The notes below the pieces were generated by a model. The model was given only the letters and a program-made list of their open reading frames with translations, did no database searches and had not been told where the DNA came from. Below are positions 9,847 to 17,014 of a DNA stretch of 17,102 nt, piece after piece. Each line of letters begins with the position of its first letter. Position 1 is the first letter of the stretch. This stretch comes from an uncultured Pedobacter sp. GTDB taxonomy: Bacteria; Bacteroidota; Bacteroidia; Sphingobacteriales; Sphingobacteriaceae. The DNA is taken from NCBI GenBank assembly GCA_946478755.1, contig CAMLDJ010000104.1, positions 1-17,102 on the forward strand, given 5' to 3'. Position numbers and translations under genes: made by a program.

Positions 9847-10022
9847 GGAGCAATGGTCTGTTTTCCGGGAGGCTTATTACGGCAATATAAGGGGTTAACT
9901 GCGGCATAATTTCGCCCATCACGCTATACAGCAAGTTGGCCAGGGATGATCCGGTGATTTTTTATTGGCAAAAAATAAAGAAGCTGTGGTTTTTTAAACC
10001 AGCGCTTGTAAACTTATTTGCG

Positions 10023-10030
10023 TAAATTTG
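10023..10030 (+). promoter_or_regulatory. Candidate -7 element of the DEAD-box-like gene
   Basis: TAAATTTG fits TAnnTTTG exactly. Transcription would begin near 10036, downstream of the in-frame TTG at 10018, which therefore cannot be the start codon of this transcript. A TTG at 10006-10008 is the nearest -33-like sequence, at shorter spacing than normal. Confidence 0.4.
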
Positions 10031-10056
10031 TAGCCTTATCCATTAATAAAGATACT

Positions 10057-11358
10057 GTGTCGTTAGATAAATTAAAACTAAGCAAGCCCCTGGTAGCCGC
10101 AATGAATGATGCCGGATACCTCTCTCCAAAAGAAATTCAGGCAAAAACAATGTCCCGGATGATTGGTGGACAGGATATCATTGCTGTCGGGCCCGAAGGC
10201 TGCGGTAAAACCACAACTTATGTGCTTGGTGTTTTAATGAAGCTAAAATACAGCACAGATGAAGCCCCTAAGGTATTGATCCTTGTGCCCGATGGCGAAC
10301 GGGTTGAAGCAGTAATCGCCGAGTTTATGCTGCTCAGCAGGAATAGGAACCTGCGTATTATAGGTTTATATGGTACTGGCGGTATGGATGAAGAGATTAA
10401 CGACCTGTTAGACGGTATGGATATCGTTGTCGCTACCCCGACAAGGGCACGTGCAGTGTATCTGAAATTAGGCTTAAACCTGAACAGACTGCAAACCTTT
10501 ATTGTTGATGATGCCGAAGTTATTGTCAAACAAGGAATGCAATTGCCTGTTGCCGAGCTGGCAAGAAGCGCGGGTAAAGTGCAGCACCTGATCTTCACTA
10601 CCGTTGTGCACGATAAACTGAACCTGATGATTGATCAGTTTATGAATTTTCCTACGACAATTGAAGTGGAAGAGCTGGGGGAAAGTCAGGCTGAAACACA
10701 TGAACTTTTGAGCTATCATGTGCCAAATTTTAAAACGAAGATTAACCTCATGAATCTCTTATTAAGAGATGATGAGGTATTTGATAAAGTTGTCATATTC
10801 GTAAATACGCGTTTAACGGCACAAAAGCTGTCTAAAAACCTGCATTCTGCCAGGCCGCGAGCGATCTCAGTATTGAATCCCCTATTTTTTGATGAAGAAG
10901 GTTTTGATCATATTGACGACTTTAAAGCTACACCTGAAGCCAGGGTCCTAATTGTTGCCAATGAGGGGCTTTCTACACTGGATCTCTCGGATATTCATTA
11001 CCTATTCCATTTCGAGGTTCCTGAAGAAAAGGAAACTTTCTTAGGCAGGGTGGTTAAAGGAAGTGGCGAAGAGGTGGTAGCCATTACCTTTGCAACAGAT
11101 CTGGAACTTGCAGAAATAAAAAAGATAGAGCAGTCTTTGGGTAAAAAGATTGAAGTATTGGAATTACCAGAAGATCTGATCATCGACAAATCAGTTAAAT
11201 CTACTCCGGTTAAAACGAAAAAGGAAGTCCATAACGGTCCCCGGGGTGGCGGTGCTTACCATGAAAAGAAAGAAAGTAATTCAAAGACCCACAATTACGG
11301 GATAGGCCAGAAAGCTAAAATGACCATGAAGAAAAAACACGGTTCAAGCTCTAAATAA
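10057..11358 (+). CDS. Divergent DEAD-box helicase-like protein with altered motifs
   Basis: A 433-residue protein with the two-RecA layout of DEAD-box RNA helicases. The GTG at 10057 is chosen because S-L-D-K-L-K-L-S-K-P-L-V after it looks like a natural N-terminus; the upstream in-frame TTG overlaps the promoter. The Q-motif region (S-P-K-E-I-Q-A-K-T) and Walker A G-P-E-G-C-G-K-T (45-52) are intact. Other motifs are changed: D-D-A-E (151-154) replaces DEAD, T-T-V replaces SAT near 181, motif V reads A-N-E-G-L-S-T-L-D-L (301-310), and motif VI reads T-F-L-G-R-V-V-K instead of H-R-I-G-R-T-G-R. ATP binding looks possible; normal unwinding looks doubtful. The tail after about 385 is basic and glycine-rich, likely RNA-binding. 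A terminator follows at once. Confidence 0.85.
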   Translation: MSLDKLKLSKPLVAAMNDAGYLSPKEIQAKTMSRMIGGQDIIAVGPEGCGKTTTYVLGVLMKLKYSTDEAPKVLILVPDGERVEAVIAEFMLLSRNRNLRIIGLYGTGGMDEEINDLLDGMDIVVATPTRARAVYLKLGLNLNRLQTFIVDDAEVIVKQGMQLPVAELARSAGKVQHLIFTTVVHDKLNLMIDQFMNFPTTIEVEELGESQAETHELLSYHVPNFKTKINLMNLLLRDDEVFDKVVIFVNTRLTAQKLSKNLHSARPRAISVLNPLFFDEEGFDHIDDFKATPEARVLIVANEGLSTLDLSDIHYLFHFEVPEEKETFLGRVVKGSGEEVVAITFATDLELAEIKKIEQSLGKKIEVLELPEDLIIDKSVKSTPVKTKKEVHNGPRGGGAYHEKKESNSKTHNYGIGQKAKMTMKKKHGSSSK

Positions 11359-12515: not shown

Positions 12516-13880
12516 CTACAACTGACGTTGTTTCATTTTTTCGGCTTCCGCTTTGAACCGTGTAATTCTGTCTTTTCCGTTCTTTTGTTTGCTGACTAGA
12601 TCGACGGCTTTAGCCTGATTCAGCAGCGCTTCATCAAAAAGCTGCATGCGATAAAAGAGGTGTGCTATGGTATCGTAATACTCAGCTGTTGGTGATATTT
12701 CAATGGCACGTTTGCTCCATATCAATGCTTTGGATAGGTGGTTGATGTTTTTTGTGCCTAGCGCATAAAAATCCCATGCTACATTATTTAGTGTGTTGGC
12801 TACGTCATTGGTTTGCATTGAGGAAATTTTGCTGTAAGAATAAGTTGTTCTCACTGCAGCGGGATTTGCGGCGAAGCTTTTCTTTATGCTGTCGCCTTTT
12901 TTTAGCAGTGCCAATCGCTTGTCTGCCGCTACTTTTGCCATTTTATTTATTGAATCGGTAGAGATGTTCATAAAATAGCGATCATAAAAGTATTGAGCTT
13001 GCGCATAAAAATTTGCCGTGTCTTTCACCGCTTTATAATAATTCAGCAAACTCAGGCTGGCGCGTCTCTGGCCTTCTTTGTAGTCTTTCGACCAGGTGCC
13101 TCGCAAATAATTCGCAACAGAGTTGGCCATCGTGATATTCTTCGTCGCGATGGCCTCCTTTTGGCTATTGGCAATGATGCTTGAATTCATTTCAACACGC
13201 ACCCGTAGGGGTTCGGTCTTGTAGATGCTATCAATAATTTTCTTATTGGTATAGGCCAGCCGGTAGGCCTTACCATAGGCAAACGGCCCTGCCTTTAACA
13301 CAAATAACACCTCGTCATAATCATTAAAGCTGCCTACAGTTAAGTAGTCAACGTATTCATCAATAAGTTTGGCATTGTCCCGCATGCCTAGCTGCTGTCT
13401 CAAAATAATATACTCCTTCAAAAAGTCTTTGTTAACCTTCCCACTTTTGTATTTTGCCTCATAATCCCCCAAAGACAAGCCACTTGAAAGTTTATCCAAT
13501 GCTTTACGGGCCAGCATCAGGTAATGGGCTGAAGAAGAGCTGTTTTTATCCCCTTTAAATATCAAGAGTCCATTTTTGTCGAGGAAAAGATACGCAGGGA
13601 ATACCTTAAGCTGGTACTTGCGCATGAAAGCCATCGCTTCCGCACTTGGCATGTTAACCGCATAGCTCACAAAGTTTTTATTGTAAAAACTAATCACATC
13701 CGGGTTGTCAATGGCACTTTTGTTGCCGAGCTGAGTGGGAGTGCCGACGGTTAAAAATATAGGCTGGCTCGTTTCAGCAGCCTTTTTTATAGCATGGTCA
13801 AAGTTTTTCTGGTAGCTGATCTGAGCAAATAGAAAACTGGATTTAAATAGAATGACAGACAGGAGCAGTATCTTTCTCAT
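12516..13880 (-). CDS. Exported thioredoxin-fold protein without cysteines, with C-terminal TPR
   Basis: A 454-residue protein with a signal peptide ending at F-A-Q (residue 20), so it should be periplasmic. Residues about 25-130 follow a thioredoxin-like fold: the strand P-I-F-L-T-V, a helix, then V-F-P-A-Y-L-F-L-D-K-N-G with the cis-proline at P95. The C-x-x-C active site is absent; G-T-P-T-Q-L-G stands at its place, and the whole protein has no cysteine. The middle part is helical. Residues about 365-440 (N-V-A-W-D-F-Y-A-L-G, then W-S-K-R-A-I-E-I-S-P) form TPR-like repeats. It cannot be a redox enzyme, so a binding or scaffold role is likely. The Crp/Fnr gene follows on the same strand. 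Confidence 0.82.
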   Translation of the reverse strand: MRKILLLSVILFKSSFLFAQISYQKNFDHAIKKAAETSQPIFLTVGTPTQLGNKSAIDNPDVISFYNKNFVSYAVNMPSAEAMAFMRKYQLKVFPAYLFLDKNGLLIFKGDKNSSSSAHYLMLARKALDKLSSGLSLGDYEAKYKSGKVNKDFLKEYIILRQQLGMRDNAKLIDEYVDYLTVGSFNDYDEVLFVLKAGPFAYGKAYRLAYTNKKIIDSIYKTEPLRVRVEMNSSIIANSQKEAIATKNITMANSVANYLRGTWSKDYKEGQRRASLSLLNYYKAVKDTANFYAQAQYFYDRYFMNISTDSINKMAKVAADKRLALLKKGDSIKKSFAANPAAVRTTYSYSKISSMQTNDVANTLNNVAWDFYALGTKNINHLSKALIWSKRAIEISPTAEYYDTIAHLFYRMQLFDEALLNQAKAVDLVSKQKNGKDRITRFKAEAEKMKQRQL

Positions 13881-13936: not shown

Positions 13937-13961
13937 TTTTGTTATCTGCACCGCCCTAATG

Positions 13962-13998
13962 GAAAAAATTACCCTCTGCTATTCTGCTCCTGCTGACC
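13962..13998 (+). repeat. Single copy of the ~39-bp repeat that also flanks mprF on the other side
   Basis: This 37-base segment starts GAAAAAATTACC, contains GCTATTCTGCTCC and ends TGACC, followed by GAAAAAG, the start of a next unit. It matches, in the same orientation, the tandem copies at 16847-17014. It lies inside the reading frame of the truncated virJ gene, whose frame stops at a TAG supplied by the repeat (13981-13979). Confidence 0.8.
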
Positions 13999-14180
13999 GA
14001 AAAAGCCCAGTTTTCCAGCCACCATCACCTGAAATAAACAGGGTAACTGAAGCAGGCCTGCCTTTTGGATGGTATATCATAATTTTACCAAACTCGTCAT
14101 AGGTTACAGAACTGGTGTCTTTGGGCGAATGTTTTGTCACTAAAGTATAGCAGTAATATGGGCACCAGGATGTATTTCAT
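13979..14180 (-). pseudogene. virJ: Truncated and frameshifted VirJ/AcvB-family gene
   Basis: ATG 14180, 19 bases after the mprF stop, opens a signal peptide beginning M-K-Y-I-L-V-P-I-L-L-L and ending T-F-A-Q. That frame then stops at R-H-Q-F-C-N-L. One frame over, the expected mature protein continues: K-D-T-S-S-V-T-Y-D-E-F-G-K-I-M-I-Y-H-P, then S-V-T-L-F-I-S-G-D-G-G-W-K-T-G. S-G-D-G-G-W is the signature of the VirJ/AcvB alpha/beta-hydrolase family. About 50 codons in, the frame enters the repeat, gains L-F-R-S-A-G-A-E and ends at TAG 13981-13979. The catalytic part is absent from the window. A two-base loss in the run after GCCCAAA would explain the frameshift. AcvB hydrolyses lysyl-PG in Agrobacterium, which fits the mprF neighbour. 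The gene is very likely dead. Confidence 0.75.
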
Positions 14181-14199
14181 AACAGTTCAATTAGAATCA

Positions 14200-16782
14200 C
14201 TAAGGTTTGATGACTTGATTCAACACAGTGGGTACCTGCAGCAGATCGTAATCCTGACTGTAAATCAAATACTTATTGTGCCATGTGGGCGAAAACTTGT
14301 CTTTGGCATCCCTTAATCCTCTGTACCTGGAGAAAGAACGGATCTTTTCGTAAGCAAATTTCATGGAGCGTTCAGGAATATTATGTGCCTGTATCATGCC
14401 GGACATCGGTGCAAATCCAATATTCACCGTTTCGAAGCCCTGCAGCTTTAAATGTTCAAACATAGCTACTATGATGAAATCAATAATGCCATTTGGTGCA
14501 TCTGCCGTTTTTCTGATCAGATCATAGGTCGCTTCACCTTTGGCGTAATCAGGTACAAGATTCAAAAAAGCAATAATTTTTTCTTCTGTATTTTCTATGG
14601 TAATGATGCTTTGTGATTTAAGTTCATCCCAGTCGAACATGCCCTGCGAAAATACGATCTCTTCCCTTTCTGTATCTTTCAGCCATTCGTCTGAAACCGA
14701 TTTCAGCCGTTGTAAAATACCGTCTTTTATCGGAGCAGTATAAATTTTGCTGATATAACCATTCTCAGCAACTTTCCTGATCGCATTGCGGATCGATTTT
14801 CTGTTTCCTCCTGCCAGGCTGAAAGATTGCAGGTCAACTATTCCTTCCTGTCCAAGAAACAGCTTCTTTTTATTCAATAGTTCATAATCAGACAGATTTT
14901 CTTCAGGAACGCGATAGTAGATGTTTTTTAAGCCCTTTTCCGCACAATATTTGTCAAAAGACTGGATGATGAGCTTTCGATTTTCAGATCTGGAAACAGG
15001 GCATTCCAATACTACAGCAAAATTCCCGGAAATGCGGTAAGCCAAAAAGCCATTTTCCTCCCGATAAATGAGCTTGTCACCGTAAGTTTTGAAGTAATCC
15101 AGTGCAGAATTGCCATATTTTTCCAATTGCAGTTTTGCCCATTGCAGATCATCATCTTCCGTCTCAGATTTAGGGATATACGGTCGGATGAGGGCGTAGA
15201 TCAGGAAGGCAACGGAAAGGAAGCCACTGATATTAATCGACAACAAAAAGTTGCGTGCAAACTGGTCCTCGGGAACCAGGTCATTGTTTCCGATCAGTAT
15301 AAAATTTTCCAATGTATACCTGACCGACTGCCACCAGCTAAAGTCTATATTGAAGTGCTTTTTGTCCAGAAAATAAAATCCAATTGTTCCATACAGTAGG
15401 ATAGCGGCTACACTCAGCAAGGTCGTTTGAATACCCAACGAACGTGTTTTTGGATTGGTCTTGATATAATATTCCTTTCTTGAAACAAACAGGATTACAA
15501 TTACTAATAGTGCAAAACTAGCCTCCTCGTAATCGATGGCCTTGGTCATATGGCCAATAAGGGAAATGATACATAGGCTGAGCCCAAAGTACCAGGCGAT
15601 ACGCAGTCCTTTGAGCATAAATGCTGCTGTTACCAGCAGGAACAAGCCTGCTGTCAACACAAAATAGTTGGAAACCCTGATCGCTTCGATGGGAAGAAAG
15701 TCTTTCAAAAAAATAAGTCTGGAATGAATGGCGGGGGTAAGTACAGATGTCAGGTTGACGATCCCCATCAGCAGCAGTAATAAAGCCGGCAATATGCGCA
15801 TCAAGAGCCTGTCGATCTTTAAAAGAAAACTGAATGCTCCCAGCAGCATTGGTGTCCAGAACTCCATAAACCTGTATACAAAGGTTATAGATACTGCTTC
15901 AGCACTTGAATATCCCAATCGCATCAACATAAAAGTCATCGATGCTTCTACAGCACCAAGTCCTCTTAAAAATGGAGATATGATCAGGAATACAACGCTG
16001 ATGATATAAGTGACCAACGCACTGGCCAGAGCGGGGTGGATCGATAAAGCCAGCATGGCAATGTAAATGTGCACAATACCTATTACTTCGATTAACACGC
16101 TGTAGCCTAATGTTTTTAAAAAGCTGTTGCGTTCAATTGCATTGCTCCGGAAATCTGCTGCATACACCTCTATCACCGGAATGTACTTCATGATAAGCAA
16201 ATATGACGCTCCTTTGTTAACCACAGCACGGTACAGCATATAGATGCCGGCAATCAGTCCAAATACAGCAATCAATCCAAACCATTCACCATGTCCTATG
16301 CTGCCTTCAATAATGGCGTAAATGAACACAGGAATAGCTATAATTACTACCGAAAGGATCCCTACAAAACCATATATAGAAGATGCGAAATTGATCTGCG
16401 ACTGGGATACTCCTTTTTTTTCAATATCACCACTGAAAAAAGCGAGTGAGGAAACTCCTCCCGCAGGTAAAAAGACACTGACAAAATTTCTTTTGAGGAA
16501 TAACAAGGTGCCATCTCCAATGGAAATAGAGCTTCCAATAGCGGAAAAAGCAAATTTGTACATCATTCCATGAACAAATAGATAAGCTATGCTCAGAGTA
16601 ATGCCCAATGAAATCCATATCCGGTCGGCGGTGAGGAATAACTGTTTTACCTGCTTCAGTTCGCCCTGCTCATGCTTCATGAACCAAATGGAAAGTGCCA
16701 GAAAGAAAACTGTAAATATAAAACTGGCGATGATTTTTGCATGCTCACGAACAAACGGAGTAACAAACCGGAGTGCTTTCAT
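14200..16782 (-). CDS. mprF: Bifunctional lysylphosphatidylglycerol flippase/synthetase, MprF-like
   Basis: An 860-residue inner-membrane protein. The N-terminal half is strongly hydrophobic with repeated helices (first at about 17-35), including F-L-P-A-G-G-V-S-S-L-A-F-F-S-G (about 104-118), typical of the MprF flippase (UPF0104) domain. A further set of helices reaches about residue 530. The rest (about 550-860) is the DUF2156 aminoacyltransferase domain, with S-I-R-N-A-I-R-K, N-G-I-I-D-F-I-I-V, N-I-G-F-A-P-M-S and F-R/Y-R-G-L-R-D-A-K-D-K-F. Such enzymes transfer lysine (or another amino acid) from tRNA to phosphatidylglycerol and flip the product outward, lowering surface charge and raising resistance to cationic peptides. 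The amino acid used here is not known. A virJ remnant follows, and a repeat array stands 65 bases upstream of the start. Confidence 0.9.
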   Translation of the reverse strand: MKALRFVTPFVREHAKIIASFIFTVFFLALSIWFMKHEQGELKQVKQLFLTADRIWISLGITLSIAYLFVHGMMYKFAFSAIGSSISIGDGTLLFLKRNFVSVFLPAGGVSSLAFFSGDIEKKGVSQSQINFASSIYGFVGILSVVIIAIPVFIYAIIEGSIGHGEWFGLIAVFGLIAGIYMLYRAVVNKGASYLLIMKYIPVIEVYAADFRSNAIERNSFLKTLGYSVLIEVIGIVHIYIAMLALSIHPALASALVTYIISVVFLIISPFLRGLGAVEASMTFMLMRLGYSSAEAVSITFVYRFMEFWTPMLLGAFSFLLKIDRLLMRILPALLLLLMGIVNLTSVLTPAIHSRLIFLKDFLPIEAIRVSNYFVLTAGLFLLVTAAFMLKGLRIAWYFGLSLCIISLIGHMTKAIDYEEASFALLVIVILFVSRKEYYIKTNPKTRSLGIQTTLLSVAAILLYGTIGFYFLDKKHFNIDFSWWQSVRYTLENFILIGNNDLVPEDQFARNFLLSINISGFLSVAFLIYALIRPYIPKSETEDDDLQWAKLQLEKYGNSALDYFKTYGDKLIYREENGFLAYRISGNFAVVLECPVSRSENRKLIIQSFDKYCAEKGLKNIYYRVPEENLSDYELLNKKKLFLGQEGIVDLQSFSLAGGNRKSIRNAIRKVAENGYISKIYTAPIKDGILQRLKSVSDEWLKDTEREEIVFSQGMFDWDELKSQSIITIENTEEKIIAFLNLVPDYAKGEATYDLIRKTADAPNGIIDFIIVAMFEHLKLQGFETVNIGFAPMSGMIQAHNIPERSMKFAYEKIRSFSRYRGLRDAKDKFSPTWHNKYLIYSQDYDLLQVPTVLNQVIKP

Positions 16783-16846
16783 ACGCAGTATTTTAATTCA
16801 ATTTACGTAATTGTCTGTATAGAATTAATGAGGATCAGCAAAAAGA

Positions 16847-17014
16847 GAAAAAAATACCCTTTGCTATTCTCCTGCTTTACCGGAAAAATTATCCTTTGCT
16901 ATTCTGCTCCCAGCTTGACCGAAAAACTTATCCTTTGCTATTCTGCTCCCTGCTTGACCGAAAAACTTATCCTTCTATTCTGCTCCCTGCTTGACCGAAA
17001 AAATTACCTTCTTA
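16847..17014 (+). repeat. Tandem array of ~39-bp units upstream of mprF
   Basis: Four units start at 16847 (35 bases), 16883 (38), 16921 (39) and 16960 (37), and a partial fifth starts at 16997. The shared pattern is GAAAAACTTATCC, then TTTGCTATTCTGCTCC, then CTGCTTGACC. Units 3 and 4 differ mainly by loss of two bases (TTTGC to TTC). Units 1 and 2 have diverged more, and unit 5 begins GAAAAAATTACC exactly like the distant copy at 13962. There are no unique spacers between units. Confidence 0.88.

Follow-up and report, generated by a model that had tools for sequence, protein, structure and literature searches.

Results

The mprF locus and the remnant beside it

The window, a stretch of 17,102 nt from an uncultured Pedobacter sp., carries on its minus strand an mprF gene (14200..16782) encoding an aminoacyl-phosphatidylglycerol (aminoacyl-PG) synthase/flippase in an uninterrupted frame of 860 aa. 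Pfam searches recovered PF09924 (E 9.3e-58, 196.1 bits) and PF03706 (E 8e-21, 75.2 bits), so that both synthase and flippase are present, and the NCBIfam MprF model NF033480 gave a full-length match of 586.8 bits, narrowly missing the equivalog cut-off of 600. The window mprF retained 182 of 183 near-invariant columns in an alignment of 105 rows, some of which represent the same genome twice, and comparison with the most similar mprF among 145 genus genomes (G096, 82%; the runner-up reached 71%) gave a dN of 0.098 and a dS of 1.62. By these two measures the gene looks to be under constraint. In the protein database there was one nearer named relative than G096, a protein labelled Pedobacter heparinus with 87% to the window mprF. 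An mprF protein identical to that of the window (P0001) was present on a contig of 4277 nt, shorter than the window.

Nineteen bases past mprF, a reading frame begins at an ATG (14180) with a hydrophobic stretch that resembles a signal peptide. This first frame (14097..14180, minus strand) runs for 27 codons to a stop, and its DNA aligned with the start of an intact gene in G096. The second frame (14006..14116, minus strand) holds 37 codons from the N-terminal domain, ending in SGDGGWKTG, contains FGKIMIYHPKGRPASVTLFISGDGGW and meets a stop at 13979. Of an acvB/virJ-type gene, the stub thus preserves roughly the first 60 codons, spread over two frames and then truncated. It has two lesions, a frame change close to where the signal peptide ends and a cut at ~14006-14000. 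The catalytic C-terminal domain with its GYSFGA serine is absent from the stub, and the rest of virJ is found nowhere in the window; judged by its sequence, the stub is a non-working member of the AcvB/VirJ family.

To place the stub in this family, we searched 80 Bacteroidota mprF loci with each piece by tblastn. The second piece alone matched VirJ genes beside mprF, the best being in L011 (67% over 36 aa, E = 4e-15), and the stub DNA was colinear with the intact G096 gene. The original prediction, a VirJ/AcvB remnant with a signal peptide, a frameshift and S-G-D-G-G-W 19 bases after mprF, is borne out by both lines of evidence. Its proposed extent, 13979..14180, held down to ~14006-14000, where virJ homology stops; the in-frame bases onward to 13979 are repeat sequence and not virJ. 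The similarity expected of both frames was found for the second and not for the first, since the signal-peptide piece alone reached a best E of 0.82 against the same 80 loci, with the correctly placed match in L078 at E = 1.8, and was not significant. We accordingly dropped this piece as evidence of virJ by itself. With E values up to 10 allowed, Pfam returned no family for either piece, and the second piece matched no NCBIfam family, because the pieces are too short.

The gene directly downstream of mprF in G096 is intact, encodes 459 aa and has both AcvB-type domains. Positions 14000-16812 of the window aligned with G096 DNA in a single alignment of 2819 columns (77.5%), which runs through the virJ start, after which homology ends; of the tests applied to the stub, this DNA alignment was the strongest. 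The stub is a genuine pseudogene remnant, the mprF-virJ gene pair from which it derives is genuine too, and the predicted loss of the hydrolase gene at this locus is upheld by the intact copy in the closest relative. In a tree of 20 mprF proteins the window and G096 were sisters (100/100). This position, together with the intact G096 virJ, indicates that the loss postdates the split between the two. A first mprF tree had joined the window to G003, a Daejeonella MAG (86/79), and a loss shared with G003 was considered; we rejected it because, with G096 added, the window pairs with G096 and G003 falls outside. Among 20 Daejeonella genomes, VirJ was present in none and mprF in one.

We think it likely that the stub preserves the 5' part of an AcvB/VirJ-type gene ancestrally paired with mprF, and that the segment was rejoined at a 39-nt repeat, which cut virJ.

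VirJ genes accompany mprF in Bacteroidota

The 80 mprF loci, found with the window's mprF as the query, carried a VirJ gene beside mprF on the same strand in 50 cases, 38 downstream and 12 upstream. Of the downstream genes, 32 followed directly, within 200 nt, and the other 6 were separated from mprF by 439-748 nt. Among the 30 loci without an adjacent VirJ, 20 were flanked on each side by 1.5 kb of sequence or more, and the rest were shortened by contig ends. A DUF998 gene (PF06197) was seen right after mprF in two loci, preceding VirJ in one (L022:8568-9245) and without VirJ in the other (L058:8595-9242); it is possibly a further lipid-related partner of mprF.

Among 119 genomes of the genus, 54 were positive for PF06057 and 55 for PF09924; all 54 VirJ genomes had mprF, and G029 alone was mprF-only. 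For the linkage count, low-scoring N-domain hits were first removed where they shared an open frame with a VirJ hit already listed. In the 55 mprF genomes, VirJ lay downstream on the same strand in 30, convergent downstream in 20 and upstream in 1, and no VirJ was found within 3 kb in 4. The convergent layout (G094, G097, G106 and others) consists of one or two opposite-strand VirJ genes facing the end of mprF, mostly two single-domain genes.

When the survey was extended to 399 genomes of the family, with mprF called by similarity to the window's protein at E 1e-100, 118 had mprF and 101 had VirJ; VirJ without mprF was never observed, and 17 of the 118 had mprF without VirJ. The dependence of VirJ on mprF is clearly one-way, and the pairing is not obligatory. 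Fisher values for co-occurrence (3e-77 for the family, 2e-33 for the genus) take no account of kinship. Because the sampled genomes share ancestry, these values cannot be read as probabilities for independent events, and we do not take them as proof. Taken together, the 459-aa G096 gene and the 50/80 loci confirm that relatives have an intact VirJ beside mprF, and the same loci, with mprF in 101/101 VirJ genomes of the family, support the proposal of a synthase/hydrolase gene pair outside the proteobacteria.

The intact proteins matched PF06057 well above its cut-off of 22 (188.6 bits in G096, 188.7 in L007 of P. steynii and 157.8 in L001), and the G096 protein aligned with AcvB 9xhm across both domains (E 2.6e-47). 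A structure comparison returned mostly N-domain matches, and 9xhm was absent among the 50 listed; the link of the relatives' VirJ to AcvB rests on sequence. Transferring AcvB residue numbers through sequence alignment to 39 two-domain Bacteroidota proteins, we found the equivalents of Ser336 and Asp271 in 39/39 and that of Asp370 in 38/39. Asp340, which is required in AcvB and reported to be conserved among proteobacterial homologues, was not kept as such: its equivalent was Asp in 4, Ser in 15, Cys in 9, Glu in 9 and Asn in 2. The N-domain of these proteins (L007:8594-10024 and 38 others) carries a Ser-Asp-His triad that solved proteobacterial N-domains do not have, with Ser in 37 (the exceptions being L022 and L039), Asp in 39 and His in 38.

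Repeated loss at the locus and unlinked VirJ copies

No VirJ adjoins mprF in five relatives (G001, G002, G003, G004 and G082), their mprF being 68-70% identical to that of the window. G001, G002 and G004 form one clade that has lost the linked VirJ. G082, which the mprF trees place as sister to Pedobacter gandavensis (G017), retains an independent VirJ relic straight after mprF (L133:3750-3860), consisting of the last ~20 VirJ codons, with both sides colinear with its sister. In G017 the VirJ gene has lost its N-domain alone. With the losses in G082, in the G001/G002/G004 clade and in the window, we conclude that loss at this locus has been repeated, usually with a paralogue left.

Such a paralogue could keep the hydrolase function in the window's organism as well, by an unlinked VirJ elsewhere in the genome, and make the decay neutral, a possibility to which we assign slightly less than an even chance. 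Consistent with it, an unlinked VirJ was retained in four of the five relatives lacking the linked gene (G001, G002, G004 and G082, with none in the MAG G003), and of the 30 genus genomes in which VirJ follows mprF directly, 19 had a further copy, either on another contig or at a distance above 3 kb. Unlinked copies in G019, G082, G001 and G002 have, by eye, a lipobox-like start, and single-domain copies adjoin a gene that by eye is DnaA-like in G019 (L128:3643-4380) and G082 (L129:3526-4251). However, the remaining 11 of the 30 had no further copy, among them the nearest relative G096, whose only VirJ is the mprF-linked one, and there was likewise no second VirJ in G022, G113, G132 and G098.

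A 39-nt repeat marks the cut in virJ

The cut end of virJ abuts a 39-nt repeat unit with its edge (13951..14005, minus strand), which was delimited by repeat family D1, the alignment of the units and the end of G096 homology. Upstream of mprF lies an array of ~4.4 copies of the same repeat (16847..17010, plus strand; TRF score 230). The pattern had 4 matches in the window against 0.10 expected, and the unit at the virJ cut and the array beyond mprF have the same orientation. The 16-mer core of the repeat had no exact match in the 119 genus genomes or in the 80 mprF loci; in G096, with up to 2 mismatches allowed, 6 scattered matches against 3 in a reversed control gave no sign of the repeat. 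The gene adjoining the cut (12516-13880, 454 aa) had no Pfam match at E 0.001, and its start resembles, by eye, that of a secreted thioredoxin-type protein.

To evaluate relocation, we followed one flanking gene, a DEAD-box gene (10018-11358), across six relatives. This gene is 2.8 kb from mprF in the window; in 5/6 relatives it is on another contig than mprF, which for draft genomes is weaker evidence than distance, and in G113 the two are on the same contig, 2.6 Mb apart. The DEAD-box gene lies near fmt in G113 (26 kb), G098 (18 kb) and G019 (10 kb), as it does in the window (4.8 kb), and we therefore regard the DEAD-box/fmt neighbourhood as conserved and the mprF segment as the newcomer. 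Positions 14000-17010 of the window, an mprF segment flanked by same-orientation 39-nt repeats where the six relatives have no mprF, look relocated. Since the DEAD-box gene is apart from mprF in 6/6 relatives, the mprF-stub segment, with 39-nt repeats at its edges, probably moved, and virJ was probably truncated where the segment was joined.

The break coincides exactly with a unit of the repeat, further copies of which sit at the contig end, and the neighbourhood changes there, as would be expected if virJ were truly intact, the contig misjoined at the repeat and the frame change an indel error. We consider such an assembly or sequencing artefact improbable, because a misjoin through the repeat would still require a real repeat copy beside the virJ start, so that the gene would be interrupted anyway, and because the frame change is a second lesion, ~100 nt from the repeat.

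Over the second frame, 83 of 111 bases are identical to G096. Its 37 in-frame codons gave a dN of 0.144, compared with 0.098 for the whole of mprF, and a dS of 1.40, a value near saturation; this dN was reached by 2 of 23 equally long stretches of mprF. The pattern fits recent decay, which would account for the low dN of the stub. That the stub is still useful, for example as a short exported peptide, is very improbable: its start codon, spacing and hydrophobic start are preserved and the 37-codon stretch has a dN below its dS, but the first frame reaches a stop after 27 codons, and in the second no start codon precedes the conserved stretch and the triad Ser and His are missing.

Discussion

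Membrane-lipid aminoacylation has been studied mostly in Firmicutes and Proteobacteria. Our search of the open-licence literature found no description of the mprF-VirJ pair in Bacteroidota, where an earlier mention is possible; we regard the pair as a known kind of system in a phylum for which no description was found. The strict co-occurrence in Sphingobacteriaceae, with VirJ never found without mprF among 399 genomes, suggests that turnover, beyond synthesis, belongs to the system.

In the reading that we prefer, a pseudogene cut at the repeat, the ancestor would have had an AcvB/VirJ-type gene and mprF as a co-oriented pair. MprF would synthesise an aminoacylated lipid and move it outward, and the secreted AcvB/VirJ-type partner would strip the amino acid off the lipid again. 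The segment carrying mprF and the start of virJ would then have been relocated, or otherwise rejoined, at the 39-nt repeat, with removal of ~85% of virJ and with the frame change sitting upstream of the cut; relocation may thus have caused the loss of virJ.

To our knowledge, Lys-PG hydrolysis has been established for Agrobacterium AcvB and VirJ and for no Bacteroidota protein; a Pseudomonas hydrolase is reportedly the subject of a 2013 paper. By analogy, the intact enzymes of the relatives would hydrolyse aminoacyl-PG. Deletion of acvB in Agrobacterium is reported to raise lysyl-PG and to impair growth in acid, acid growth being harmed by loss of the hydrolase and not of the synthase (PMC13135905), so that lineages that have lost only the hydrolase are informative. 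By the same analogy, the originally predicted rise in aminoacyl-PG in the window's organism is plausible; it would require that no paralogue is present and would depend on the lipid used by MprF, the acceptor here being an assumption. A broader proposal is tentative and, in our judgement, rather unlikely: Bacteroidota may own a widespread aminoacyl-lipid cycle of MprF and a two-active-site AcvB-type partner, possibly with one site for each of two aminoacyl lipids, and the window's organism would be a natural mutant in which the synthase remains and the only hydrolase is gone. For geneticists, the Sphingobacteriaceae offer ready comparisons between species that have the VirJ partner and species that lack it.

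Among known systems, the Ti-plasmid VirJ is described as the C-terminal domain of AcvB (PMC13135905). Similarly, the linked proteins of L001, L005, L008 and L019 (228-250 aa) have a single VirJ domain; unlike it, the single-domain Bacteroidota forms lie beside mprF on apparently chromosomal contigs, and no link to a type IV system was seen in the flanks read. In the LpiA-AcvB operon of Agrobacterium tumefaciens, an MprF-type synthase gene is reported to precede one that encodes a secreted two-domain alpha/beta-hydrolase (PMC13197417, PMC13135905). The Bacteroidota pair resembles this operon in the synthase-then-hydrolase order, in similarity over the whole length of the hydrolase and in the catalytic Ser and the Asp271 and Asp370 equivalents retained in the relatives. 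It differs in its host, in the reduction of the window hydrolase to a stub, in a gene order that varies (VirJ downstream, upstream or convergent), in the variable Asp340 equivalent and in the N-domain triad of the intact relatives, the AcvB N-domain having no Ser. In domain 1 of Brucella abortus VirJ (9rc4), sequence alignment places GIGQGA where the Bacteroidota N-domains have GYS(Y/S)GA, so that 9rc4 lacks the N-domain Ser. The N-domain triad of the Bacteroidota proteins is relevant to the role of the first domain of AcvB.
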